Positions 9,101 to 19,502 of a DNA stretch of 62,334 nucleotides are shown in pieces (position 1 is the stretch's first letter; each line of letters starts with the position of its first letter). The position numbers and the translations under genes were made by a program. Origin of the DNA: Frigoribacterium sp. MEB024 (GTDB lineage: Bacteria; Actinomycetota; Actinomycetes; Actinomycetales; Microbacteriaceae). The stretch lies in assembly GCF_000878135.1 (NCBI RefSeq), contig NZ_JXQZ01000009.1:1-62334 (forward strand), read 5' to 3'. The notes under the pieces are model-generated. The model was not told where the DNA came from and made no database searches. It was given only the letters and a program-made list of their open reading frames with translations.

Positions 9101-10908
9101 GCGACAGCTCGTGGAACTCGGGCTCGGGTTACTGGGCCGGCAGCCTCGACGAGGCGGCGGTCTACGCGCGCCCCCTCGACGCCACGACGATCGCCCAGCA
9201 CTACGCACTCGGCACGAACAAGCCGAACGCGGCTCCCGTGGCCGCCTTCTCGTCGGCGACCACCGGCCTCGGAGTCGCCTTCGACGGCGGCGCCTCGGCC
9301 GACAGCGACGGCTCGGTCGCCTCGTACGCCTGGGACTTCGGCGACGGCAGCGCCGTGGCGTCGGAGGTCGCACCCACGCACACCTACGCCGCGGGCGGCA
9401 CGTACACGGTCACGTTGACCGTGACCGACGACCGGGGTGCCGTCGGCACCTCGACCGCGACCGTCACGGTGACGCCGCCCCGCGTCAACGCGACGCCCAC
9501 CGCCTCCTTCACCTCGACCGTGGACCACCTCGCCGTCGCGGTCGACGGGACGGCCTCGTCCGACGCCGACGGCGCCATCGCGTCGTACCGCTGGGACTTC
9601 GGTGACGGCACGATCGCAGCCACCGGATCGACCACCGGCCACACCTACGCCGCGGCCGGCACCTACACCGTGACCCTCACGGTCACCGACGGCGAAGGCG
9701 CCACCGGCACCTCGACCGGGACGGTCACCGTCGCCCCGGCCCCGCCGGCGAACGTCGCCCCCACGGCGTCGTTCACGAGCGCCGCGACGGGTCTGGCGGT
9801 GTCGACCGACGCGTCGGCCTCCACCGATCCCGACGGCACCGTGACCGGCTACGCCTGGTCGTTCGGTGACGGCGGCTCGGCCACCGGGAAGACCGCCTCG
9901 CACTCGTACGCGGCGGCCGGCACGTACACCGTGACCCTCACGGTCACCGACGACAAGGGCGCCACCGGCACCTCGACGGGCACCGTCACGGTCGCTCCCA
10001 TCCCGAACGCGACCCCGACGGCGGCGTTCACGACGGCGACCGACAAGCTCTCGGTCTCCACCGACGGACGCGCCTCGAGCGACTCCGACGGCACCGTCGC
10101 CGCCTACGCCTGGGACTTCGGCGACGGCGGCACGGCGACCGGCAGCACGGCGAAGCACGACTACGCCACCGGCGGCACCTACACGGTGACCCTCGTCGTG
10201 ACCGACGACAAGGGCGCCACGGGGACCCGCACCTCCACGGTGACGGTCACCGCGCCTCCCGTCGTCACCGCGATCGCGCAGGACGGCTTCGGCCGCTCGG
10301 CGACGAACGGTTGGGGATCGGCCGACGTCGGCGGCGCCTGGACGCGCACCGGCCAGGCCTCGCAGTACTCGGTCGTCAACGGCGTCGGCACCCAGTACCT
10401 GGGTGCCGCGGGCTGGAGCACCTCGATGGCCCTCACCGGCGTCAACACGACCGACAGCGACCTGCGCACCAGCGTCAGCCTCGACAAGGCGGCGACCGGA
10501 GGCGGCACGTACGTCTACGTCACGGGCCGCAAGGTGGCGACGAACTCCGAGTACCGCGCGACCCTGCGCTACCGCTCGGACGGACGCGTCGTCGTCGCGC
10601 TCAACGCCTACAAGGGCACGTCGACGAACGTCACCCTGGTGAACGAGACGCTGGTGCCGGGCACGGTCACGCCGGGCGCCAAGGTCAACGTACGCCTCGA
10701 GGTCAGCGGCTCCGGCACGACGACGATCCGGGCGAAGGCCTGGCTCGACGGCACGACCGAGCCCACCGCGTGGACCGTCTCGACGACCGACACGTTCGCC
10801 GGCCTGCAGGCCCCCGGCTCGGTGGCCCTCGCCGCCTACGCCTCGGGCTCCGCGACCAACGCCCCGCAGACGGTCTCGTTCGACGACCTGAGCATCTTCA
10901 AGCCGTGA
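6193..10908 (+). CDS. Large secreted surface protein: propeller-like, Fn3, two LamG, four PKD domains
   Basis: A 1571-residue protein with a signal peptide (cleavage after VQPAQA, residue ~34). Residues ~50-460 are propeller-like repeats (VYAAGKFTK, LYIGGAFTKVNG, IVLGGSFNSVNG, VVYGGEFPTVNG). An Fn3-like domain follows (~465-550). Two LamG/concanavalin-like domains of ~210 residues lie near 555-780 and 790-1005 (FSVEAWFRTTSTTGGKIVGFG; YTLETWFNTTTTSGGKLIGFG). Four PKD domains span ~1010-1355, each with a YxWxFGDG and GTYTVTLTVTD-type motif. A C-terminal ~205-residue module resembles the N-terminal module of the beta-helix protein. There is no sorting signal or membrane anchor, so it is probably secreted or held to the polymer by its lectin-like domains. 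TGAGG lies 7 nt before the ATG. A role in binding or organising the EPS is inferred. Confidence 0.85.
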   Translation: MGRTVSSRLRLPAIVAASAVLLSVLIGVQPAQADSAPADPTAPSTPATVTADALPTPQIDGSVFSQVIVGNTVYAAGKFTKARPAGSAPGVNEVPRSYLLAYDITTGALSTTFAPVIDGQVKALAASPDGKRLYIGGAFTKVNGVNKYRLAALDPTTGALVTSWNPGTNATVNAIAAVGPNVYVAGVFSSIGKDTRTKAAAVTAANGTNLPWAPQIAGGDVLALVASPDGSKIVLGGSFNSVNGSSQPGYGLAMVDPNSAANLPFQANDVIRNGGGQAAIYSLSATANGVYGSGYTFGGGGRLEGAFKSTWAGDLVWVEDCHGDTYSVAANSTAVYIAGHPHYCGNIGGQPQTNPWTFQRAMAFSDSATQTVTNDPMGYYNFAGNPAPSILNWFPDFGTGSYTGQNQGPWSVAANDKYVVYGGEFPTVNGKAQYGLTRFAVSSIAPNKEGPVYSGALFKPTLVSLESGSVRVAWQSNWDRDNANLAYQVYRDGNLTTPVYSTTTPSTFWKRPSIGFVDKGLTPGSTHEYRVRATDPLGNTVLGDTVSVTVSTTAPSPYQQRVAGDGATSFWRLGEKSGSTVYDSIAFDDQQAQAGVTRGATGQASTDSDGSSTFSGTDTGLSSTTSAITGPQTFSVEAWFRTTSTTGGKIVGFGNSNTGASNSYDRHLYMDPRGRVSFGVYPNASRIITSPTALNDGQWHQVVGTLSSAGQSFYVDGKKIATDAGTTSAQDYTGYWRIGGDNNWDGAPYFQGDIDDVSVYPKALSPQQVDGQWVASGRTSKLPTSPADAYGARVFQDDPEAYFRLDGDSTAVATDSSPIGTNGVSTGGLTTGGPSAVGGTGQSATFNGQDAGVATTTSYDSPNNYTLETWFNTTTTSGGKLIGFGSQQTGYSGNYDRHVYMEQDGRLQFGNWTGQMNLASSTASYNDGRWHHVVATQGSDGMKLYVDGAQVGSNPTTASDGYRGYWRLGGDSSWNSGSGYWAGSLDEAAVYARPLDATTIAQHYALGTNKPNAAPVAAFSSATTGLGVAFDGGASADSDGSVASYAWDFGDGSAVASEVAPTHTYAAGGTYTVTLTVTDDRGAVGTSTATVTVTPPRVNATPTASFTSTVDHLAVAVDGTASSDADGAIASYRWDFGDGTIAATGSTTGHTYAAAGTYTVTLTVTDGEGATGTSTGTVTVAPAPPANVAPTASFTSAATGLAVSTDASASTDPDGTVTGYAWSFGDGGSATGKTASHSYAAAGTYTVTLTVTDDKGATGTSTGTVTVAPIPNATPTAAFTTATDKLSVSTDGRASSDSDGTVAAYAWDFGDGGTATGSTAKHDYATGGTYTVTLVVTDDKGATGTRTSTVTVTAPPVVTAIAQDGFGRSATNGWGSADVGGAWTRTGQASQYSVVNGVGTQYLGAAGWSTSMALTGVNTTDSDLRTSVSLDKAATGGGTYVYVTGRKVATNSEYRATLRYRSDGRVVVALNAYKGTSTNVTLVNETLVPGTVTPGAKVNVRLEVSGSGTTTIRAKAWLDGTTEPTAWTVSTTDTFAGLQAPGSVALAAYASGSATNAPQTVSFDDLSIFKP

Positions 10909-11969
10909 CCGACGCCGCCCCGGAGCACGCGAGCAGGCTCGTCGTCCAGCAGTCGTTCCCGCGACCGCGACCGACGACGAACCCCTACCTCGTGATGCTC
11001 CGGGACGCCGTCGGCGCGGTGCCCGGGGTCGAGGTGCGCACCTTCGACTGGAAGGGCGTCCTCCTGGGCCGCTACGACGTCTTCCACGTGCACTGGCCCG
11101 AGATCCTCGTCTCGGGGCAGAGCCCGCTCAAGGCGCTCGTGCGTCAGGCGTTGACCGTCGCCCTGGTGACGAAGCTGCGACTGACGCGAACCCCGATCGT
11201 CCGCACCGAGCACAACCTCGAGCTGCCGAGCGGCATCTCCCGGCGCGAGCGCGTCCTGTTGCGCTGGATCGAGCGACGCACCGCGCTCTGGGTGCGGCTG
11301 AACGACGAGACGCCCGAGCACGCCGACGCCCTCGGCGCGCTCATCCCCCACGGCCACTACGTCGACTGGTTCGCCCGCTGGCCGTGGCCGTCGCGCGAGG
11401 CAGGCCGGGTGTCGTACTTCGGCTTCATCCGCCGCTACAAAGGGGTCGACGGCCTCCTCCGGGCCTTCCGCGACGTCCGCGGGGACGACCGTCGACTGCA
11501 CGCCGCCGGCAAGCCCTCGACCCCCGAGCTCGCCCACGGCCTCGAGCGGCTCGCGGCCGACGACCCCCGGGTCAGCCTCGACCTGCGGTTCCTCGACGAC
11601 GAAGCCCTCATCGACGTGGTGCGCCGGGCCGAGCTCGTCGTGCTGCCCTACCGCGAGATGCACAACTCGGGCGGCGTGCTGACGGCGCTGTCGCTCGGCC
11701 GGCCGGTGCTCGTGCCCGCCAACGAGGTCAACGCCCGTCTGGCCGACGAGGTCGGCGCCGACTGGGTCCGGCAGTACGCCGACGACCTGGGGGCCGAGGA
11801 CGTCGAGCACGCGCTTGACGCGGCTTCACGACTCGACGACGACGCCCGCCCCGACCTGTCGGCTCGCGACTGGGACCGTGCCGGCGAGGCGCACGTCGCG
11901 GCGTACCGTCGGGCGATCGCCGCCACCCGTGGTCGACGCCTCGTCGGCCGACGCCGGGCCCGTCCGTGA
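10905..11969 (+). CDS. GT-B family glycosyltransferase (EPS assembly)
   Basis: The 354-residue product starts at a GTG that overlaps the stop of the surface-protein gene (GTGA). The N-terminal half includes YDVFHVHWPE and RTEHNLE, as in GumI/AceP-type mannosyltransferases. The C-terminal donor-binding half has SYFGFIRRYKGVDGLLRAF and a VLPYREMHNSGGVLTALSLGRPVL segment, the family's conserved Ser/Gly-Gly nucleotide-sugar pocket. It should add one sugar to the lipid-linked repeat unit at the cytoplasmic face. Donor and acceptor cannot be read from sequence. The C-terminus is a basic tail (RGRRLVGRRRARP) that may bind membrane lipid. A 2-bp gap separates its stop from the convergent next gene. 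Confidence 0.85.
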   Translation: MTDAAPEHASRLVVQQSFPRPRPTTNPYLVMLRDAVGAVPGVEVRTFDWKGVLLGRYDVFHVHWPEILVSGQSPLKALVRQALTVALVTKLRLTRTPIVRTEHNLELPSGISRRERVLLRWIERRTALWVRLNDETPEHADALGALIPHGHYVDWFARWPWPSREAGRVSYFGFIRRYKGVDGLLRAFRDVRGDDRRLHAAGKPSTPELAHGLERLAADDPRVSLDLRFLDDEALIDVVRRAELVVLPYREMHNSGGVLTALSLGRPVLVPANEVNARLADEVGADWVRQYADDLGAEDVEHALDAASRLDDDARPDLSARDWDRAGEAHVAAYRRAIAATRGRRLVGRRRARP

Positions 11970-11971
11970 GG

Positions 11972-12985
11972 TCAGCCGTCGACGCGGCCGTACTCCCGGT
12001 ACCCCGCGCCCCACGCGCCCGCCACCATGCCGGCACCCCGGGCCATCGTGCGGATGCCACGAGCGCGTTGCCCCAACGACCGGCGCCCGAGGGGGCGGGT
12101 CACCGTGCCGACCGCGTACCGGCCCAGCCCGCCGGCGACGCGCACGCCGCCCTTCGCCGACAGCCGGAGGCGCGTGGACAGTCGCGACGCCCCTCGCGCG
12201 GACAGCATCACCGAGGTGAGGCTCCAGCCGTTGCCGCTGCTGTAGGCGCGCTGCACGACCCAGCGCCGCGTGACGCGGTGCGCGGGGACGACGTCCGTGA
12301 CGACCGCCTCGGCGCACCACAAGATCGTGCCGCCGCCCGCGACCAGACTGCGGGTGAACAGCGTGTCCTCGCCTCCGAGCTGGCCGAGCGCCACGTCGAA
12401 GGCCAGCCCCTGGCGGCGCACCTCGGCGAGGTCGAGCAACAGGTTGTTGGTCGCGGCGACGTCGACGTGCGTGCCGGTCGCGAGTCGACGGCGCACGAAG
12501 AAGCGTCCCTCGACGATGAAGGGCTCGGGCTCGACCTCGTACTCGCTGCGCACCGGGCCGACGACGGCCGCGGCACCCGTCTCGGCCTGCAGGGAGACCA
12601 GGGCGCCCAGCCACCCGTCGGACGGCCGCTCGTCGTCGTCGATGAAGACCAGCAGGTCGCCGTCGCCGCTCTCGGCGAGCGCCCTGTTGCGGGCCGACGC
12701 GATGCCCGGCGTGGCCTCGACGACGTAGTCCACCGTCACGGGTCCTGCGCCGTCACGGGGGTCGGCCGCCGCGAGCGCCGCCGCCTCGACGCGCTCGCGC
12801 CCCGACCCGCTCGCGTCGTTGTCGACGACGAGCACGCGCGCCTCGACGCCGAGCCCGTGGACGCTGCGGGCCTGCTCGACGAGCAGCGGCAGCACCGCGT
12901 CGAGATCGCGCGGTCGGCGGAAGGTCAGCACGGCGATGGTCAGGAGGCGCGGGGCGGTCGGGTCGGTCGTCACGGGCCCCAGCAT
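11972..12985 (-). CDS. GT2-family glycosyltransferase
   Basis: A GT-A type, family-2 glycosyltransferase of about 337 residues. It shows the N-terminal TIAVLTFRRPRDLDAVLPLL strand, an acidic metal-binding motif FIDDDERP and the likely catalytic-base region GGEDTLFTRSL. The C-terminal ~90 residues are basic and Ala/Gly-rich, probably membrane-associated. The start is uncertain: ATG at 12985 is used here, but GTG at 12973 is possible. It is divergent from the next glycosyltransferase across ~64 bp and convergent with the upstream one. A role in extending the EPS repeat unit comes from context. Confidence 0.82.
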   Translation of the reverse strand: MLGPVTTDPTAPRLLTIAVLTFRRPRDLDAVLPLLVEQARSVHGLGVEARVLVVDNDASGSGRERVEAAALAAADPRDGAGPVTVDYVVEATPGIASARNRALAESGDGDLLVFIDDDERPSDGWLGALVSLQAETGAAAVVGPVRSEYEVEPEPFIVEGRFFVRRRLATGTHVDVAATNNLLLDLAEVRRQGLAFDVALGQLGGEDTLFTRSLVAGGGTILWCAEAVVTDVVPAHRVTRRWVVQRAYSSGNGWSLTSVMLSARGASRLSTRLRLSAKGGVRVAGGLGRYAVGTVTRPLGRRSLGQRARGIRTMARGAGMVAGAWGAGYREYGRVDG

Positions 12986-13049
12986 GTCAGGTCGGTGACG
13001 GGCACCGGGTCGCTCACCGCGCCTCCTGCGGGTGGACGGGGGACGAACC

Positions 13050-13982
13050 GTGGGTGAGTCGCTCGCAGGCCTCTCGGTGGTCGTCGTCAACTACGGTTCG
13101 ACCGACCTGCTGCGCCGGAACCTCGCACCCGTGTCACGGGCGACCGACGGCCTCGTCGTGGTCGTCGTCGACAACTGGTCGGGAGCGGCCGAGCGCGCCC
13201 GCGTGAGCGAGCTCGCTGCGGCCGAGGGCTGGCAGCTCGTCGCGCCCGCCGGCAACGAGGGCTTCGGCACCGGGGTGAACCTCGGCGTCGCCCGGGCGCG
13301 CGAGGCCGGGGCGCGCCACCACGTGCTGCTCAACCCGGACGCCGTCGCGGACGCGGGGGCCCTCGCCGCCCTGCACCGCGCCTCCTCGTCCGACCCGATG
13401 ACGATGAGCGCGCCGACCGTGCTGCGCCCCGACGGCAGCGTCTGGTCGGCCGGCAGCGATCTGTACCTCGACGACGGACGCATCCGGTCGAGACGGCGAC
13501 GGTTGCCCGGCGCCCGCGTCGAGGAGTGGCTGAGCGGTGCCTGCCTCGTGCTGAGCGACGAGCTGTGGCAACGCTGCGGCGGCTTCGACGACGACTACTT
13601 CCTCTATTGGGAGGACGTCGACCTGTCCCGCCGCGTCGTGAGCGCAGGAGGCGCGCTGCGGCTGCTCGACGACGTCACCGTCGTCCACGCCGAGGGCGGC
13701 ACGCAGACCGCCGGCGGGGCCGACCGGTCGGGGCAGGCCAAGTCGGCCGGGTACTACCGGTACAACATCCGCAACCGTCTGCTGTTCGCCGCGAAGCACC
13801 TCGGCGACGACGACCTGCGCCGGTGGCGACGCCTGACCCCGCGCATCGCGTGGGAGGTGCTGCTGCAGGGCGGGAGGCGGCAGTTCGTCCGATCACCGGG
13901 CACGCTGCTCGTCGGGCTGCGGGCCGTGCTCGAAGGGCGACGGATCGTGGCGACCGAGCTGCGGCGACGACGAGCCCGATAG
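13050..13982 (+). CDS. GT2-family glycosyltransferase (WbbL/rhamnosyltransferase-like)
   Basis: A 310-residue family-2 glycosyltransferase with the N-terminal SVVVVNYGS strand, a VLLNPDA metal-binding segment and the conserved GACLVLSDELWQRCGGFDDDYFLYWEDVDLSRR region. That last region is shared by dTDP-rhamnosyltransferases such as WbbL, so rhamnose is a plausible but unproven donor. GTG 13050 is chosen because GGGGGA lies ~7 nt upstream; an in-frame GTG at 13032 lacks such a site. The C-terminal helix region (RLTPRIAWEVLLQGGRRQF) may lie on the membrane. It is the last plus-strand EPS enzyme before the ATPase insert. Confidence 0.85.
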   Translation: MGESLAGLSVVVVNYGSTDLLRRNLAPVSRATDGLVVVVVDNWSGAAERARVSELAAAEGWQLVAPAGNEGFGTGVNLGVARAREAGARHHVLLNPDAVADAGALAALHRASSSDPMTMSAPTVLRPDGSVWSAGSDLYLDDGRIRSRRRRLPGARVEEWLSGACLVLSDELWQRCGGFDDDYFLYWEDVDLSRRVVSAGGALRLLDDVTVVHAEGGTQTAGGADRSGQAKSAGYYRYNIRNRLLFAAKHLGDDDLRRWRRLTPRIAWEVLLQGGRRQFVRSPGTLLVGLRAVLEGRRIVATELRRRRAR

Positions 13983-13989
13983 AGGGTTT

Positions 13990-14033
13990 GATAAATTTAT
14001 CGACGGCCGACCCAGGCTCTGATAAATTTATCA
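13990..14033 (+). promoter_or_regulatory. Tandem perfect palindromes GATAAATTTATC in front of the AAA+ ATPase
   Basis: Two copies of the 12-bp perfect palindrome GATAAATTTATC lie at 13990-14001 and 14021-14032, 31 bp start to start (about three helical turns). The second extends to a perfect 14-bp TGATAAATTTATCA. The second ends only 3 nt before the GTG start codon. In this GC-rich sequence such AT-rich sites are exceptional. They cover the whole promoter region, as expected for autorepression by a dimeric DNA-binding protein. Confidence 0.75.
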
Positions 14034-14035
14034 CC

Positions 14036-15268
14036 GTGCGATCTCCCCTCACCAACCCGTTCCAGGCGGGCTCCGACGTCGTCCCCGACGTCTGGGCCGG
14101 CCGAACCGAGCAGTTGAGCGACTGGCACCAGGTCCTGCGACCCCGCCGACGTGCGGGTCTGTACGAGACCGGACGGACGATCCTCGGCGAACCGGGCACC
14201 GGCAAGTCGAGCCTCGTCCGACGCATCGCCCGCGACGCCGCCGAGGCCGGCGACTGGGTCACGCCTCAGCTGCGCATGCCCACCGGGGCCGATCCCCTCA
14301 AGATCATCGCCTCCGCCGTCCTGCGACTGGCCGACCGCGCCGGGCTCCGCACCTCGACCCGGAGGGGCGTCCTCGACCTGCTCGCCAGGGTCGAGCAGGT
14401 GGCCGTGACCGGCTTCTCGGTGACGACCCGCGGCGCCGACGGCCCCGAGCCGTTCACCGCCCTCTTCGAGCTCCTCGTCGAACTCGGCCAGGCGGCGATC
14501 GAGCAGGACGCCGTCGTGATGATCCACGTCGACGAGGTGCAGAACATCGGTGACGAGGCCGCCCTCTCGCAGCTCCTCATCGCCCTCGGCGACGCCCTGT
14601 CGCACGAGGTCGAGGTCAGCGTGCCCGGTGGAGGCACGGTGTCCCGCTACCTGCCCGTCGCCGTCTACCTCACGGGCCTGCCCGACTTCGAGGACATGGC
14701 GGGTGCCCGGAAAGGGGCGACCTTCGCCCGACGGTTCCGCACCATCACGCTCGGTCCCCTCGACGAGGGCGACATCCTCGAGGCACTCCAGCCCTTCGTG
14801 ATCGCGGGGTGGGAGACCGCTGGCGACCACGGTGCCGTCGAGACCGTCCGCATGGACCCTGCAGCGGCGAGGGCGATCGCGGCCCTCAGCTGCGGAGAGC
14901 CCTTCCTGTTCCAGCTCGCCGGCCAGCGGGCGTGGAACGTCGCGACGGCCCCCGTCGTCTCTGAGGAGGACGTCGTGGCCGGCTGGCGCGGAGCCGAGAG
15001 CGAGGCGTCGGCCCACGTCGAGCGCATCCTGAACCGCCTTCCCCCGCGTGAGCACGAGTTCTTGAGGGCGATGGCGTCGCTGCCCCCCGCCGAGCGCACC
15101 TTGAACGCCATCGCCGAGACGATGGGCCTGGCCTCGGGAGCCCAGCTCGGGCCCACCTCGCAACGGCTCGACACGGTGCGCGGCGTGGTCAGCCGGTGCA
15201 AGCCGTACGCGTTCCGCAACCGCGCCGTCGAGGCCTACCTGACGACGGACTGGCCCCGGACCGGCTGA
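14036..15268 (+). CDS. Orc1/Cdc6-like AAA+ ATPase with C-terminal winged-helix-like domain
   Basis: A 410-residue protein with Walker A GEPGTGKSS (residues 51-59), Walker B VVMIHVDEVQN (~157-170), a sensor-1-like strand VAVYLTGLPDF (~207) and an Arg-rich ARRFRTI segment (~231) that could hold an arginine finger. The last ~65 residues (PPREHEFLRAMASLPP..., LGPTSQRLDTVRGVVSRC) look like a winged helix, as in archaeal Orc1/Cdc6 and STAND-type AAA_16 ATPases. The GTG start sits 3 nt after a perfect palindrome and lacks a Shine-Dalgarno sequence. The gene stands alone, convergent with the phosphatase-like gene (21-bp gap). Its role is unknown. Its winged helix is the obvious candidate to bind the palindromes. 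Confidence 0.8.
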   Translation: MRSPLTNPFQAGSDVVPDVWAGRTEQLSDWHQVLRPRRRAGLYETGRTILGEPGTGKSSLVRRIARDAAEAGDWVTPQLRMPTGADPLKIIASAVLRLADRAGLRTSTRRGVLDLLARVEQVAVTGFSVTTRGADGPEPFTALFELLVELGQAAIEQDAVVMIHVDEVQNIGDEAALSQLLIALGDALSHEVEVSVPGGGTVSRYLPVAVYLTGLPDFEDMAGARKGATFARRFRTITLGPLDEGDILEALQPFVIAGWETAGDHGAVETVRMDPAAARAIAALSCGEPFLFQLAGQRAWNVATAPVVSEEDVVAGWRGAESEASAHVERILNRLPPREHEFLRAMASLPPAERTLNAIAETMGLASGAQLGPTSQRLDTVRGVVSRCKPYAFRNRAVEAYLTTDWPRTG

Positions 15269-15289
15269 GCCCGGACGACAGCGCACTGG

Positions 15290-16660
15290 TCAGGCGGGAC
15301 TCCCCCACTCCGCGGCGAGGCCCGGGTAGACGCGCAGGGCCGCGGCGGGCACGACTTCCCACGTGTCGAAGTCCTCTTCGGCGTGGCGCAGCTCCGCCAT
15401 CGCGGGGTACTCGCCCGCCAGACCCCGGGGCCACTCCTCGAGCGGATCGTCGTGGTCGCGCTGCGCCTGACCGGACTCGCGCAGCGCCACCCGTCGCTCG
15501 TCGGACAACGGCCGGAGGACGCCCGCCTCCACGAGCCACTCGACGACTCGGGCGACGGCATCCCGGGCCAGGGTCGGCGGCCCCCCGACACCACGCCAGG
15601 TCAGTTCGTCCGCCAGGGCCGACTCGGCCGCTCCGGCCGATGCCACCCAGGGAACGGTGAAGTCGGGCGCGAACGGACCGCGGTCGTTGATCTCCGCCGC
15701 CGTGTAAGGGGCGTCGACGATCTCGACCAGCACGCGGGCCTCGGCCGCGGCGAACCATCCGGCGGCGGTGTCGGCGAGAGCACCGCCGCCTGCGTCCGAG
15801 ACCTCCGGGTAGGCGATCGTGGCCCGACCCTCCGCCACCGTGTGACGTCGCCCGGGAAGGTCGCGGTCCCTCAGGTCCAACGAACGACGCTCGAGCGCCA
15901 GCGCCTCGGCGAGCGACTCGACCCGCCGTCTGATGTCGTCCCTGATGGAGAAGACGTCGACGAGACCGGCACCGATCGGATCGGGCACGTCCCAGTCCAG
16001 CACGGGGGTCGACCGGGGCACGGGGAACGCGTCCGGGCATCCGATCCGAACCACCAGGTCGGCCGCCCGGACCGGGGCCGCCATGATGCGTCTCGCCGAC
16101 TGTCCGGGCTCCACCCAGGCCTTGTCCATGCCCATCACGATGGACACGTCGCGCTGCATCGCCGGCGGCACCGGCTCGTCCGGCGGATCGATGCCCCGGG
16201 CGTCGACGAAGTACTCGTCGTCGACGAGGACGCGCAGGTACGCGGCGGCCATGACGCTGCGCCCGATGCCCCTGGGGCTGACGACGAGCACGGTGCGGAC
16301 CCGCGCCGGGTCGATCCGGGCCGCCGCCCGGCGGGAGCGACGGCGCAGTGCGGCCCCCGAGACGGGTTCGCCCTCGTCGGCGGCCGCCCCGGACGGCCGT
16401 CGCGTACGGCGGACGAAGAGCCACTCGCGGGCGAACAGCACGGCGAAGAACACGATGAGCACGAGGGCCGCCAGGGCACCGACGTAACCGAGTCCGACCT
16501 TGAACCAGACGGCACCGGCGATCGGCCACCCGGCGGCCAGCCGGGCTCGCTGCTCGGGGTCGGGGTCGACCCACGCGTTGGTGCTCATGACCACGACGTA
16601 CACCGCGCTCAAGACGAACACCGGGAACACCCACAGGGCTCGTCGTTGCGACGCGGTCAC
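15290..16660 (-). CDS. Membrane-anchored LMW-phosphatase/ArsC-like protein without catalytic Cys
   Basis: A 456-residue protein with two transmembrane helices (residues ~9-26 and ~55-80), then a low-molecular-weight phosphatase/arsenate-reductase-like domain (~120-260), then a ~190-residue C-terminal domain of unknown fold. The P-loop reads VVSPRGIGRS at 127-135: Ser128 replaces the nucleophilic Cys of the C(X)5R motif, while Gly133, Arg134 and Ser135 are kept. The downstream DWDVPDP segment (~221) matches the general-acid region of ArsC-type members. It is therefore predicted not to be a cysteine phosphatase. LMW phosphatases normally partner BY-kinases in EPS loci, and a BY-kinase-like gene lies 4 kb away. 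Translation begins at a GTG. Confidence 0.72.
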   Translation of the reverse strand: MTASQRRALWVFPVFVLSAVYVVVMSTNAWVDPDPEQRARLAAGWPIAGAVWFKVGLGYVGALAALVLIVFFAVLFAREWLFVRRTRRPSGAAADEGEPVSGAALRRRSRRAAARIDPARVRTVLVVSPRGIGRSVMAAAYLRVLVDDEYFVDARGIDPPDEPVPPAMQRDVSIVMGMDKAWVEPGQSARRIMAAPVRAADLVVRIGCPDAFPVPRSTPVLDWDVPDPIGAGLVDVFSIRDDIRRRVESLAEALALERRSLDLRDRDLPGRRHTVAEGRATIAYPEVSDAGGGALADTAAGWFAAAEARVLVEIVDAPYTAAEINDRGPFAPDFTVPWVASAGAAESALADELTWRGVGGPPTLARDAVARVVEWLVEAGVLRPLSDERRVALRESGQAQRDHDDPLEEWPRGLAGEYPAMAELRHAEEDFDTWEVVPAAALRVYPGLAAEWGSPA

Positions 16661-16929
16661 CGTGGTCGTCCGTCCGACGTCGGCACGATCGGTCCCCCTC
16701 CGCCGAGGATCTCGTGCCCTCGGTGCAGGTCGATCCTGCCGCCCGCGACGCGCCGGGCGCCATCCCGCGTCGGAGGGCCACGCGCCTCCCGGGGCGCGGT
16801 GACGTCACCGCACAGCGAACGGCCCGGCCTGAGCGGGCGTGTTCGACGAGGGCGGGCGTCTTCGACCGACCGTGTTCGACGAACTCGCCCGGATCGGGCC
16901 CGGGCTGGTGCCTCCAGCCGGTGCCGGAC
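16661..16929. other. Intergenic region between phosphatase-like gene and GT4 gene
   Basis: No gene is supported in these 269 bp. The region should hold the minus-strand promoter for the phosphatase-like gene. Near the GT4 stop codon lie weak hairpins (GGCTGG 16903-16908 with CCAGCC 16914-16919) and short direct repeats of a CCGG-CTCAGCCCC type, possibly a terminator. Confidence 0.35.
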
Positions 16930-17949
16930 TCAGCCCCTGCCGGGCTCAGCCCCGACGAACTCCGCCAGCGACGCCGCGAGGTGCCGCGTCGTCAGCCGTT
17001 CCTCGACCAGGGCCCGCCCCGCCGCGCCGAACGCGCGGGCCTCGACCTCGTCGCCGAGCAGCCGCAGCACGTGTCCCGCGAGCGCCGACGAGTCCCCCAC
17101 CGGCGCGAGCAACCCGGTGCGCTCGTGCTCCACGTAGTCCTCGATGCCCGGGGTGTTCGTCATCACGACGGGCCGCCCCGTCGCCATCGCCTCGAGGCTG
17201 ACCGTCATGCCTGACGCGTGCAGGTTGTCGCGCGTCGCCACGGCCACGATCGAGGCACGGGCGTACAGCTCGGCGAGTTCGCGGTGCGAGACGTGCGGCA
17301 CCACGGTGACGCCCTCGGGCGGTGCCGCGTCGCTCGTCGTCTGCACGACCAGCTCGACGTCCGGTCGCTCGGCGTGGACCCGCTCGAGCGTCGCGAACAG
17401 GGTCGCCGGGTCGCGGTCGCGGTCGCCTCCGATGCTCAGCACCATCGGTCGCGTGGGCCACGGACGCGCCGCGAAGAAGTCCTCGTCGACCCCGAAGGTG
17501 AAGAACCCGACCGGCGGGCCGTCCTCGCCGACGAACCGTCGCAGCGGCTCGACCTGCCCCCGGCTGATCACCCAGAGGCCGCTCATCCGTCGCAGCACGT
17601 CACGCATGCGTCCGACGTCCTGCCCGCGCTCGACCCGGTCGGTCACCCAGATCACACCCGTGTACATGCGGTCGTGGGGCCGCGTCAGCAGCATCCGCCG
17701 CGCGACGTTCTCGTCCCAGGTCACGCCGACGTCGTCGGACGGGACCCCGGACGAGGAGGCGCGGCGCGGCGCCACCCGGTCGCGCAGCACCTGCAGGCGG
17801 CCGGGTTCCGCGACCGACGCGATGCGCGCCTCCGGGTCCGCGTCGCGCAGCGCCTCGAGGCCGTACGGCCAGAGGCCGGGCCGGAAGCCTGCCGCGTGAT
17901 CGGCGGCCCAGCCGGTCACGTCGCGTTCGGTCGCGAAGAGGACCTCCAT
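16930..17949 (-). CDS. GT4-like glycosyltransferase
   Basis: A 339-residue GT-B glycosyltransferase. The C-terminal half has LSIGGDRDRDPATLFATLERV, a HVSHRELAELYARASIV helix and a SLEAMATGRPVVMTNTPGIEDYV donor-site motif containing the conserved Glu of the EX7E family. The N-terminal acceptor domain is divergent. The ATG at 17949 overlaps the flippase stop (TGATG) and has a strong AAGGAGG 7 nt upstream. It is the last gene of a four-gene minus-strand EPS operon (Wzz/BYK-like, GT, flippase, GT). The sugar is unknown. Confidence 0.85.
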   Translation of the reverse strand: MEVLFATERDVTGWAADHAAGFRPGLWPYGLEALRDADPEARIASVAEPGRLQVLRDRVAPRRASSSGVPSDDVGVTWDENVARRMLLTRPHDRMYTGVIWVTDRVERGQDVGRMRDVLRRMSGLWVISRGQVEPLRRFVGEDGPPVGFFTFGVDEDFFAARPWPTRPMVLSIGGDRDRDPATLFATLERVHAERPDVELVVQTTSDAAPPEGVTVVPHVSHRELAELYARASIVAVATRDNLHASGMTVSLEAMATGRPVVMTNTPGIEDYVEHERTGLLAPVGDSSALAGHVLRLLGDEVEARAFGAAGRALVEERLTTRHLAASLAEFVGAEPGRG

Positions 17950-19502
17950 CACCGCGCCTCCTTCTCGTCGTCGCCGGTGCGGCCGTCGTGCACGCGCTCC
18001 TCGGCGGCCCGCTCGGCCACCGCTCGCTCGGCGATCGCCTGGTCGGTCGCGGTCTCGTCACCGCGCTGCTCGTCGACGTCGAGGCCCGCGGCCGCCGTGG
18101 CGCCCTCGCCGTCCGCCGACTCGTCGACGACGCCGTCGCCACCCGCTCCGCCCGCCGCCGCCTCGGCCCGACGCCGCCCCAGGTCGCGCGAGACGTACCA
18201 GAGGTTCGGCACGAGCTGACAGAGCGCCACCGAGATCGCCGACCCGAGCACGGGTCCCGCGGCCCCGACCTGCCCGATGAACCACCACGACAGTCCCAGG
18301 TTGAGGGGGACCATCAGCACGATCGGCAGCACCTGGAAGACCAGTCCGGTCTTGTCGGTCATGTACATGCCGACCGGGTACTTGGCCGCCTGCAGGCCGA
18401 CGAAGACCACGAAGCCGACGAGCATCCAGCCGTCGAGCGTGATGGCCCCGCCCGACACGAACCGCGCCAGGAACGGGCTGATCACGGCGAGCCCCGTGCC
18501 CAGCACGAGTCCGCCGAGCAGGAACCACAGCGTCGGCACGGTCGGCGACTCCACGCGCCCGGCCGAGCGGGCCGCCGCGTAGACCGGCCAGAGGGCGATG
18601 CCCGCCGCGGCGACGGTCTGCAGGACGATGCCGAACAGCTGCGAGGCGAGGTTGTACTGCGCGAGCTCGTCCGGGCCGGCCAGGTGGCTGAGCAGCAGGC
18701 GGCCGGTCTGCATCGCGACCGGCAGGGCGATCATCTGCACGAGCATCGGCCAGGCGAGGCCCAGGGCGGGCACGCCGCGGTAGCTGCGGACGCGCGGCAC
18801 GAGCTTGACGGCCTGTCCGATCTGCGGCGACAGGGCGCGCGCCGCCACGATCAGGCAGATCACCGACACGAGGCTGTTGGCCACGTACGAGACGACCGCG
18901 AGGTAGCTGCCGATCGGTGCGCTGAACATGACGGCCGAGCCGATCGCGAGCAGCATGAACGGCGCCACGACGGCCTGGCTGGCGACCTGCGTGCTGGTCT
19001 TCTTCAGCCCCACGAGGATGCGCTGCCCGACCGTCAGCGGGATCACCAGGCCGAACACCGCCAGGCAGAGACCGGCCGCGAGCGAGCCGCCGTCGGGCAA
19101 CAGCCCCTCACCGAGCAGGACGGGCCACCAGCCCGCGAGGGTGATGAGCAGGGCGACGGCGACCATGATGCCGCCCGACACCAGCAGCACACGGAAGGCC
19201 GTGACGATCGAGCGCTTGACGAAGTCGTCCGTGCGGACCGACGACGACCCGGCCACGGCGTTGATCACGATCGCCGCGATGCCGAGGTCGGCGAACGGCA
19301 GCAGGGTCGGGAAGGTCGAGAGCAGCCCGTACTGGGCGTAGGCGTCGGTGCCGAAGTTCTGGATGATCATGCGGCTCGTGATGATGCCGAGCACGCCCGA
19401 CAGGCCCATCACGACCACCTTGATCGCCGCGGTCGAGCCCACGGCGGCCATCGCGCCGCCCCGGCGGGGACTCCCGGCCGAGCCCGTCGCCGACCGGCTC
19501 AC
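17949..19502 (-). CDS. Wzx-like polysaccharide flippase (MOP superfamily)
   Basis: A 517-residue integral membrane protein with ~12-14 predicted helices arranged as in MATE/MOP exporters, beginning AIKVVVMGLSGVLGIITSRMIIQNFG. It should flip lipid-linked repeat units across the membrane before polymerisation by the Wzy-like protein. The last ~75 residues are an unusual hydrophilic, acidic tail rich in Ala/Glu/Asp (VDESADGEGA..., RAAEERVHDGRTGDDEKEA) that is not part of the transporter fold. The GTG at 19502 overlaps the stop of the upstream glycosyltransferase (GTGA). Family assignment is good; the substrate is inferred. Confidence 0.84.
   Translation of the reverse strand: MSRSATGSAGSPRRGGAMAAVGSTAAIKVVVMGLSGVLGIITSRMIIQNFGTDAYAQYGLLSTFPTLLPFADLGIAAIVINAVAGSSSVRTDDFVKRSIVTAFRVLLVSGGIMVAVALLITLAGWWPVLLGEGLLPDGGSLAAGLCLAVFGLVIPLTVGQRILVGLKKTSTQVASQAVVAPFMLLAIGSAVMFSAPIGSYLAVVSYVANSLVSVICLIVAARALSPQIGQAVKLVPRVRSYRGVPALGLAWPMLVQMIALPVAMQTGRLLLSHLAGPDELAQYNLASQLFGIVLQTVAAAGIALWPVYAAARSAGRVESPTVPTLWFLLGGLVLGTGLAVISPFLARFVSGGAITLDGWMLVGFVVFVGLQAAKYPVGMYMTDKTGLVFQVLPIVLMVPLNLGLSWWFIGQVGAAGPVLGSAISVALCQLVPNLWYVSRDLGRRRAEAAAGGAGGDGVVDESADGEGATAAAGLDVDEQRGDETATDQAIAERAVAERAAEERVHDGRTGDDEKEAR

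Follow-up and report, generated by a model that had tools for sequence, protein, structure and literature searches.

C proteins are small helix-turn-helix (HTH) regulators, and archaeal orc1/cdc6 genes adjoin ORB (origin recognition box) elements. For the C protein C.Csp231I, two inverted-repeat operators (OL and OR) ahead of the gene, a leaderless transcript, and both positive and negative self-control have been described (PMC4824078). Here we compare with these systems a gene for an AAA+ ATPase that is preceded by two short palindromes, located in a stretch of 62,334 nucleotides (hereafter the window) from Frigoribacterium sp. MEB024 (contig NZ_JXQZ01000009.1). On the basis of its promoter in orthologues, we consider it likely that this solitary, apparently horizontally moving ATPase of Orc/Cdc6-like fold uses its winged helix to control the leaderless promoter of its own gene. 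In the literature searched, we recognised nothing on this ATPase clade, and the palindrome, GATAAATTTATC, turned up only in three Vibrio quorum-sensing papers.

A sequence-only reading of the window had pointed to two identical 12-bp palindromes upstream of the gene, and these were confirmed (Table 1). The two copies of GATAAATTTATC start 31 bp apart, the second stops 3 nt short of the GTG start codon, and no match was obtained in 100 dinucleotide-preserving shuffles, as against two in the window. The same reading had placed the feature at 13982–15268; position 13982 still belongs to the preceding glycosyltransferase gene, as its final base, and the coding sequence runs from 14036 to 15268. 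Close orthologues were found in 24 of 398 Microbacteriaceae genomes (E≤1e-60), in 10 of 66 genomes of genus g32 (named copies Curtobacterium), in 14 of the 247 genomes of genus g121 (named copies include Microbacterium), in 13 of 18 of genus g35 and at 25 loci of a named genome collection, these sets overlapping one another. Identical protein-plus-promoter copies were merged and five rows were dropped, leaving 59 distinct orthologue promoters. The dropped rows were L012, with a disrupted frame; L085, in which no start could be identified; L077 and L153, short sequences truncated at contig ends; and L086, which has about 40% identity and was retained as an outgroup. In L012 (genome G139), two upstream boxes are still visible (GATAACTTTATC and GATGAAATTATC) despite the disrupted frame.

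The proximal site was never lost in the 59 promoters: GNTAANNTTANC was found at −15 in 51 of them and at −14 in the other eight. A second intact GNTAANNTTANC was present 27–31 bp upstream in 53 promoters, with a spacing of 28 bp in 30, 31 bp in nine, 29 bp in eight, 27 bp in five and 30 bp in one. In the other six, the distal copy is damaged in L037, more so in L050, and unrecognisable in L041, L147, L150 and L152. Absence of the palindromes upstream of orthologues, which the sequence-only reading had named as a refutation, therefore did not hold. For the 28 promoters with a spacing of 28 bp and the proximal site at −15, the mean information was 1.59 bits per position in each site and 0.44 in the spacer. 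All 59 promoters have TANNNT at −13 or −12 of the start codon. TAANNTTA invariably includes TAANNT, so the −10 match is inherent in the palindrome, and the informative feature is its fixed distance to the start codon. Shine–Dalgarno (SD)-like tetramers were detected between −14 and −5 in none of the 59, partly because the palindrome fills this stretch, and the start codon is ATG in 40 promoters and GTG in 19. In M. tuberculosis, the usual −10 motif is TANNNT centred 7–12 bp ahead of the transcription start, and leaderless genes account for a quarter of all genes (PMC3898074). The promoter comparison thus suggests that the proximal palindrome is probably an operator into which the −10 box of a leaderless promoter is merged, in keeping with the earlier proposal of a leaderless GTG start without an SD sequence.

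Table 1. Features of the ATPase gene and its promoter (positions in the window)
Feature	Position	Strand	Basis
Distal palindrome (putative operator 1), GATAAATTTATC, centre 40.5 bp before start codon	13990..14001		Intact in 53/59 promoters
Proximal palindrome (putative operator 2), holding the predicted −10 element TAAATT (−13..−8)	14021..14032		GNTAANNTTANC at −15/−14 in 59/59 promoters
AAA+ ATPase, 410 aa, with C-terminal winged-helix-like domain (Orc/Cdc6-like fold, predicted)	14036..15268	+	Pfam AAA_16, AlphaFold, Foldseek
GTG start codon, putatively leaderless	14036..14038	+	No SD-like tetramer in 59/59 promoters
Codons 371–380, inside the predicted recognition helix (368–380)	15146..15175	+	Helix in model; suggestive covariation of residues 373/374 with the half-site

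In the bacterial genomes checked, the palindromes mark the ATPase gene and little else. GATAAATTTATC occurs nowhere else in the 3.4 Mb assembly. Among 16 genomes of the genus, GATAANNTTATC was found in two copies in each of the five carriers, all at the ATPase gene, and was missing from nine of the 11 non-carriers, with one copy each in the remaining two (G005 and G014). Across 24 orthologue loci with flanks of up to 10 kb, GNTAANNTTANC gave 47 matches in ATPase promoters and none elsewhere in 462,543 bases. Many random copies elsewhere, which the sequence-only reading had also named as a refutation, were thus not seen in the window genome or at these loci. The pattern TAANNTTA-N23-TAANNTTA, which covers a spacing of 31 alone and lets carriers with other spacings escape, was found in six of 398 Microbacteriaceae genomes, every instance at the ATPase. 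A regulon of further palindrome copies, for which the sequence-only reading had proposed a genome scan, was thus not found, either in the window genome (GATAAATTTATC) or in the other carriers of the genus (GATAANNTTATC). As far as these searches indicate, the only target seen for the ATPase is its own promoter. That the sites accompany the ATPase gene alone is a stronger argument for self-recognition than the covariation described below.

The protein has a Walker A motif (GEPGTGKS, residues 51–58) and a Walker B motif with D166/E167, as had been read from the sequence, and Gly54, Gly56, Lys57, Asp166 and Glu167 are invariant across 69 aligned homologues. Pfam AAA_16 (PF13191) matched at 36.9 bits (E 6.9e-9), above the gathering cut-off of 32.6. 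An AlphaFold model based on the 69-homologue alignment had a mean predicted local distance difference test score (pLDDT) of 88.4 and a predicted template modelling score (pTM) of 0.85, superseding a model from nine rows (pLDDT 68.4). By our own reading, the helices and strands at the C-terminal end of the model resemble a winged helix, as had also been suggested earlier. The top three Foldseek matches in the PDB were archaeal Orc1/Cdc6 proteins (2v1u and 2qby, E 2.1e-9; 1fnn, 3.2e-9), and two of the best such matches are DNA-bound structures. This match is not exclusive, with RuvB close behind (E 4.7e-9). Template modelling (TM) scores by query were 0.39–0.53 for archaeal Orc/Cdc6 entries (0.44 for 2v1u), the best among the 50 matches listed was 0.56 for the archaeal Walker ATPase 2qen, and sequence identity to these archaeal proteins was 15–19%. 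Membership of the Orc1/Cdc6 family was rejected, as the NCBIfam model TIGR02928 gave 22.1 bits against a cut-off of 181.3 and covered residues 14–72 only. From the low curated-model score and the Foldseek ranking, the window ATPase is Orc/Cdc6-like by predicted fold and outside the family by curated model, so that only the fold part of the earlier 'Orc/Cdc6-like' label stood.

We then compared the half-sites with the predicted recognition helix. At base 2 of the half-site, the majority of rows have A, whereas most of g35 and some others have G, and T is found in a few rows and in the majority of Curtobacterium rows from one clade. The distal site often shares half-site changes with the proximal one. 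Phe374 was accompanied by at least one GTTAA half-site in seven of eight rows, including the tree-distant L051 (Fisher 1.7e-5, phylogeny ignored); of the 18 rows with Thr373, 16 have one or more GGTAA half-sites (Fisher 2.2e-8, likewise). Site position 1 was disregarded because it has a single deviating row, which makes perfect fits meaningless. After correction for overall protein distance, four of the top five of 295 columns were in the winged HTH (wHTH) domain (401, 390, 373 and 398; the fifth was 49). It is suggestive that residues 373/374 vary with the operator half-site base, and this would point to self-recognition.

The gene is patchily distributed. Within the genus it occupies three positions, one shared by the window, G013 and G015, one behind G6PD in G003, and another in G004, 52 kb from that genome's own G6PD. 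In the protein tree, Curtobacterium copies appear in several separate places and the gene tree crosses genera. Genome G448 contains two divergent copies of different clades (L037 and L052), one sharing 78% and the other 61% identity with the window ATPase. Their operator variants differ, which amounts to a natural specificity test. From the tree and the loci, we infer that the ATPase gene moves horizontally. For the G003 copy, no clean empty site or target duplication was seen, and the sequence behind G6PD differs in the other 15 genomes of the genus (1.5 kb compared). As a separate observation, inverted repeats around GCCACGAA...TTCGTGGC, which by eye resemble repetitive extragenic palindromic (REP) elements, are located in the intergenic region behind G6PD in several genomes of the genus (L199, L201, L205 and L206). 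A phage origin was considered and rejected: in viral contigs, 23 stretches matched one of two peptide patterns and none encodes a relative of the ATPase, a phage collection gave one weak match (27%), and no PHROGs family was hit.

No conserved partner gene was detected, as no family stands out across genera in 26 loci, analysed with crude gene calling that missed the window ATPase itself. Families were common to at most six of the 26 loci, at varying distances, and neighbours were shared within genera. When ten neighbours from five loci were analysed using Pfam, three had no match and the rest were ordinary, with no recombinase or restriction-modification domain among them. The exopolysaccharide (EPS) setting noted earlier is real in so far as the two flanking genes appear to be of polysaccharide type, a GT2-family glycosyltransferase gene (13032–13982) preceding the ATPase gene and a GT1-family gene on the other side (Pfam). 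A special tie to EPS was not supported. In five other loci the neighbours were G6PD, aldo-keto reductase, AraC-type regulator, glyoxalase, acetyl xylan esterase and unassigned genes, and a role as EPS regulator was rejected, since these loci place the copies outside EPS genes. The EPS location of the window copy looks incidental.

The gap between the two glycosyltransferase genes (13983–16930 in the window; L126–L133) differs across the genus. Its contents include acyltransferase-3, ATPase, DUF4265, ASCH-domain, hydrophobic-protein and unnamed genes, and in G010, G008 and G001 almost nothing separates the two glycosyltransferase genes. In G013 and G015 an extra insert precedes the ATPase; the insert of G013 gave two acyltransferase-3 matches, and a DUF4265 gene lies downstream of the ATPase in that genome. 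G009 has GATGACTTCATC at the same gap position. Being varied or near-empty, the gap appears to be a hot spot of changing cargo. The DNA homology of the ATPase cassette in the window to that of G013 and G015 starts at the first base of the distal palindrome, and in the comparison with G013 it ends 5 nt beyond the stop codon. The convergent gene at 15290–16660 (− strand, 456 aa) has a sub-threshold similarity to low-molecular-weight phosphatases (15.9 bits against a cut-off of 23.2), and an Rfam search of window positions 10000–18000 gave no match.

The sites are conserved in sequence and position and, in the genomes checked, are associated near-exclusively with the gene, which occurs patchily at different loci and for which no partner was found across genera. 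We propose that the winged helix of the ATPase would sit on each palindrome, the two being predicted operators. As the proximal operator overlaps the −10 box, its occupancy would block RNA polymerase, and binding there would shut off transcription. The distal site, centred at −36.5 to −40.5, may act from a class-II activator position or promote cooperative filling of the proximal site; its damage or loss in six of 59 promoters indicates that it is helpful and not essential. Upon entry of the gene into a new host cell, expression would come first and a low steady level would follow, by analogy with the C-protein circuits of restriction-modification systems, and the ATP state of the ATPase may tune DNA binding. 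Our guess from the modelled fold is that the ATPase may also act on DNA beyond self-regulation. A bolder version, which we regard as doubtful, is that the gene is a recombinase-free single-gene mobile unit in which the ATPase is its own sole transcription target. In that version, operator specificity would be diverging between lineages (GATAA, GGTAA and GTTAA; TGACG-type in distant kin), so that different copies could coexist in the same cell without regulating one another, in the manner of immunity or incompatibility groups.

Several observations weigh against self-control by the ATPase. With spacings of 27–31 bp, strict helical phasing is not maintained. Neither the whole wHTH (p 0.27) nor the recognition helix taken as one block (p 0.41) showed significant covariation, and the Fisher tests on Phe374 and Thr373 leave phylogeny aside. 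The tree program's label count needs one change only, with 36 unlabelled rows outside the count, and L051 is on a long branch with unsure placement. Exceptions exist in both directions: GTTAA half-sites without Phe374 in five of 12 rows and Phe374 without GTTAA once (L037), Thr373 without GGTAA twice (L047 and L158) and GGTAA without Thr373 in five of 21 rows. A reversed control of the TAANNTTA pair pattern was also found in three of the 398 genomes, the GNTAANNTTANC pair at spacing 28 occurs in 20 viral-contig stretches, and in the wider family an inverted repeat at p<0.05 was detected in only 18 of 68 upstream regions (e.g. L022, L165 and L182). Finally, G005 and G014, which have no close ATPase copy, keep their single palindrome behind the same glycosyltransferase gene. 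Past it, homology to the window continues for 12 nt in G014, into the spacer, and for 2 nt in G005, and an unrelated gene then follows, with a hydrophobic product in G014. We read these single palindromes as probable scar-like remnants of ATPase loss, though they may be pre-existing sites.

The same observations bear on two other explanations of the sites. If a separate host regulator read the palindromes and the ATPase gene were merely its target, other targets would be expected, yet GATAANNTTATC is missing from most non-carriers and in the carriers occurs only at the ATPase. Such a regulator would suit the non-significant covariation across the wHTH and the isolated sites that persist in two non-carriers. 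We nevertheless consider it unlikely, given that no partner gene stood out across genera in the 26 loci and that half-site changes coincide with recognition-helix changes in what look, by eye, like two separate regions of the tree. Alternatively, the distal palindrome may be the target or scar of a site-specific insertion and no operator. The cassette homology beginning at its first base, the single copies in G005 and G014 at the same locus without the gene, and the distant plasmid relative L160 (6365–8477, Sphingobium), which by annotation is followed by integrase and IS91 transposase genes, are all consistent with this. We regard it as quite improbable, because 53 of the 59 promoters, from several unrelated loci, have kept the distal site with the gene, and its half-site changes often match those of the proximal site. 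Moreover, the homology past the palindrome in G014 (and the 2 nt in G005) is as expected after gene loss, and no target duplication, end repeat or, among the ten Pfam-tested neighbours, recombinase domain was seen.

Two further proposals concern the function of the ATPase. The sequence-only reading had mentioned a defence or replication system, and no evidence was found for either. A replicon-like module, in which an Orc1/Cdc6-type initiator beside its origin boxes is now integrated in the chromosome, would account for the archaeal Orc1/Cdc6 fold matches, two of them DNA-bound, for the gene and paired sites forming one unit, and for distant relatives on plasmids (60 records), one of five inspected being near a ParA gene. 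This is nonetheless highly improbable. Both sites are close to the start codon, the −10 box falls within the proximal one and the distal one is damaged or lost in six promoters; the plasmid relatives are all less than 60% identical (39.6% for the best among the 20 matches listed), and Orc1-type models in general gave 12.6–22.3 bits against cut-offs of 181–417. A phage-defence or stress-response ATPase kept low by autorepression would add to self-control rather than compete with it, and we entertain it tentatively. It is in line with a patchy, apparently horizontally moving, solitary gene and with weak similarity to PADLOC mad8 in 34 of the 69 homologues (best E 1.6e-6). However, the mad8 match of the window protein (E 0.0048) is confined to residues 49–71, the P-loop, the ten neighbours from five loci had no PADLOC match, and the two peptide patterns retrieved no relative from viral contigs. 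Taken together, control of the ATPase promoter by the ATPase itself remains the reading that we favour, and the sites in orthologue promoters lend it support at the sequence level, as had been proposed for an autoregulated DNA-binding ATPase.

Of the 148 genomes sampled within the class, 57 hold relatives (E≤1e-25). The window ATPase shares with these widespread bacterial AAA_16 proteins, annotated 'ATP-binding protein' or 'AAA family ATPase', both the fold and an N-terminal NPF/NPY-x-P-x-x-G motif. The close clade (56–96% identity) carries the GNTAANNTTANC pair, whereas in distant AAA_16 members (23–41%) other repeats or none were found. By eye, repeats over the start include CGTCAG-type palindromes (L086), three GGTACTNTGACGTC boxes (L095) and upstream GTAANNTTAC palindromes (L091, L096, L097 and L093). 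The inverted-repeat test used 60 approximate dinucleotide shuffles per region; its 68 regions include the window's own copy and some duplicates, and many of the 18 positives come from a single related group. Upstream repeats are not universal in the wider family. Separately, a distant subfamily in f105 genomes (L169, L173, L174, L176, L177, L182 and L186) has a promoter overlaid by inverted arms of 15–19 bp, such as CTATGGTGTCGTCTAGC with its complement, that end at −10 from the ATG.

Within this large class of bacterial ATPases, known merely by such generic annotations, one clade would gain a testable property, a self-contained promoter switch with sites almost unique in each genome checked. 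Because the sites are almost unique, a single gene and a 60-bp fragment suffice for testing regulator, target and specificity, and the natural half-site variants and the two-copy genome make specificity directly testable. If true, this would link bacterial Orc/Cdc6-type ATPases to autoregulated, horizontally moving genes and give a first handle on their role.

The archaeal Orc1/Cdc6 proteins (2v1u and 2qby) and 2qen have an AAA+ core followed by a winged helix, as does the model of the window ATPase. The window ATPase differs from archaeal Orc1/Cdc6 in that its sites form a promoter and its curated score is far below the cut-off. By analogy, the closest described circuit that we found is the C-protein switch. 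As with C proteins, two palindromic sites, here putative operators, lie over the predicted leaderless promoter of the gene itself, an arrangement recognised from sequence in 53 of 59 promoters. C proteins control a restriction gene, whereas in the present system the regulator would be a 410-residue ATPase, for which no partner gene was found across genera in 26 loci.

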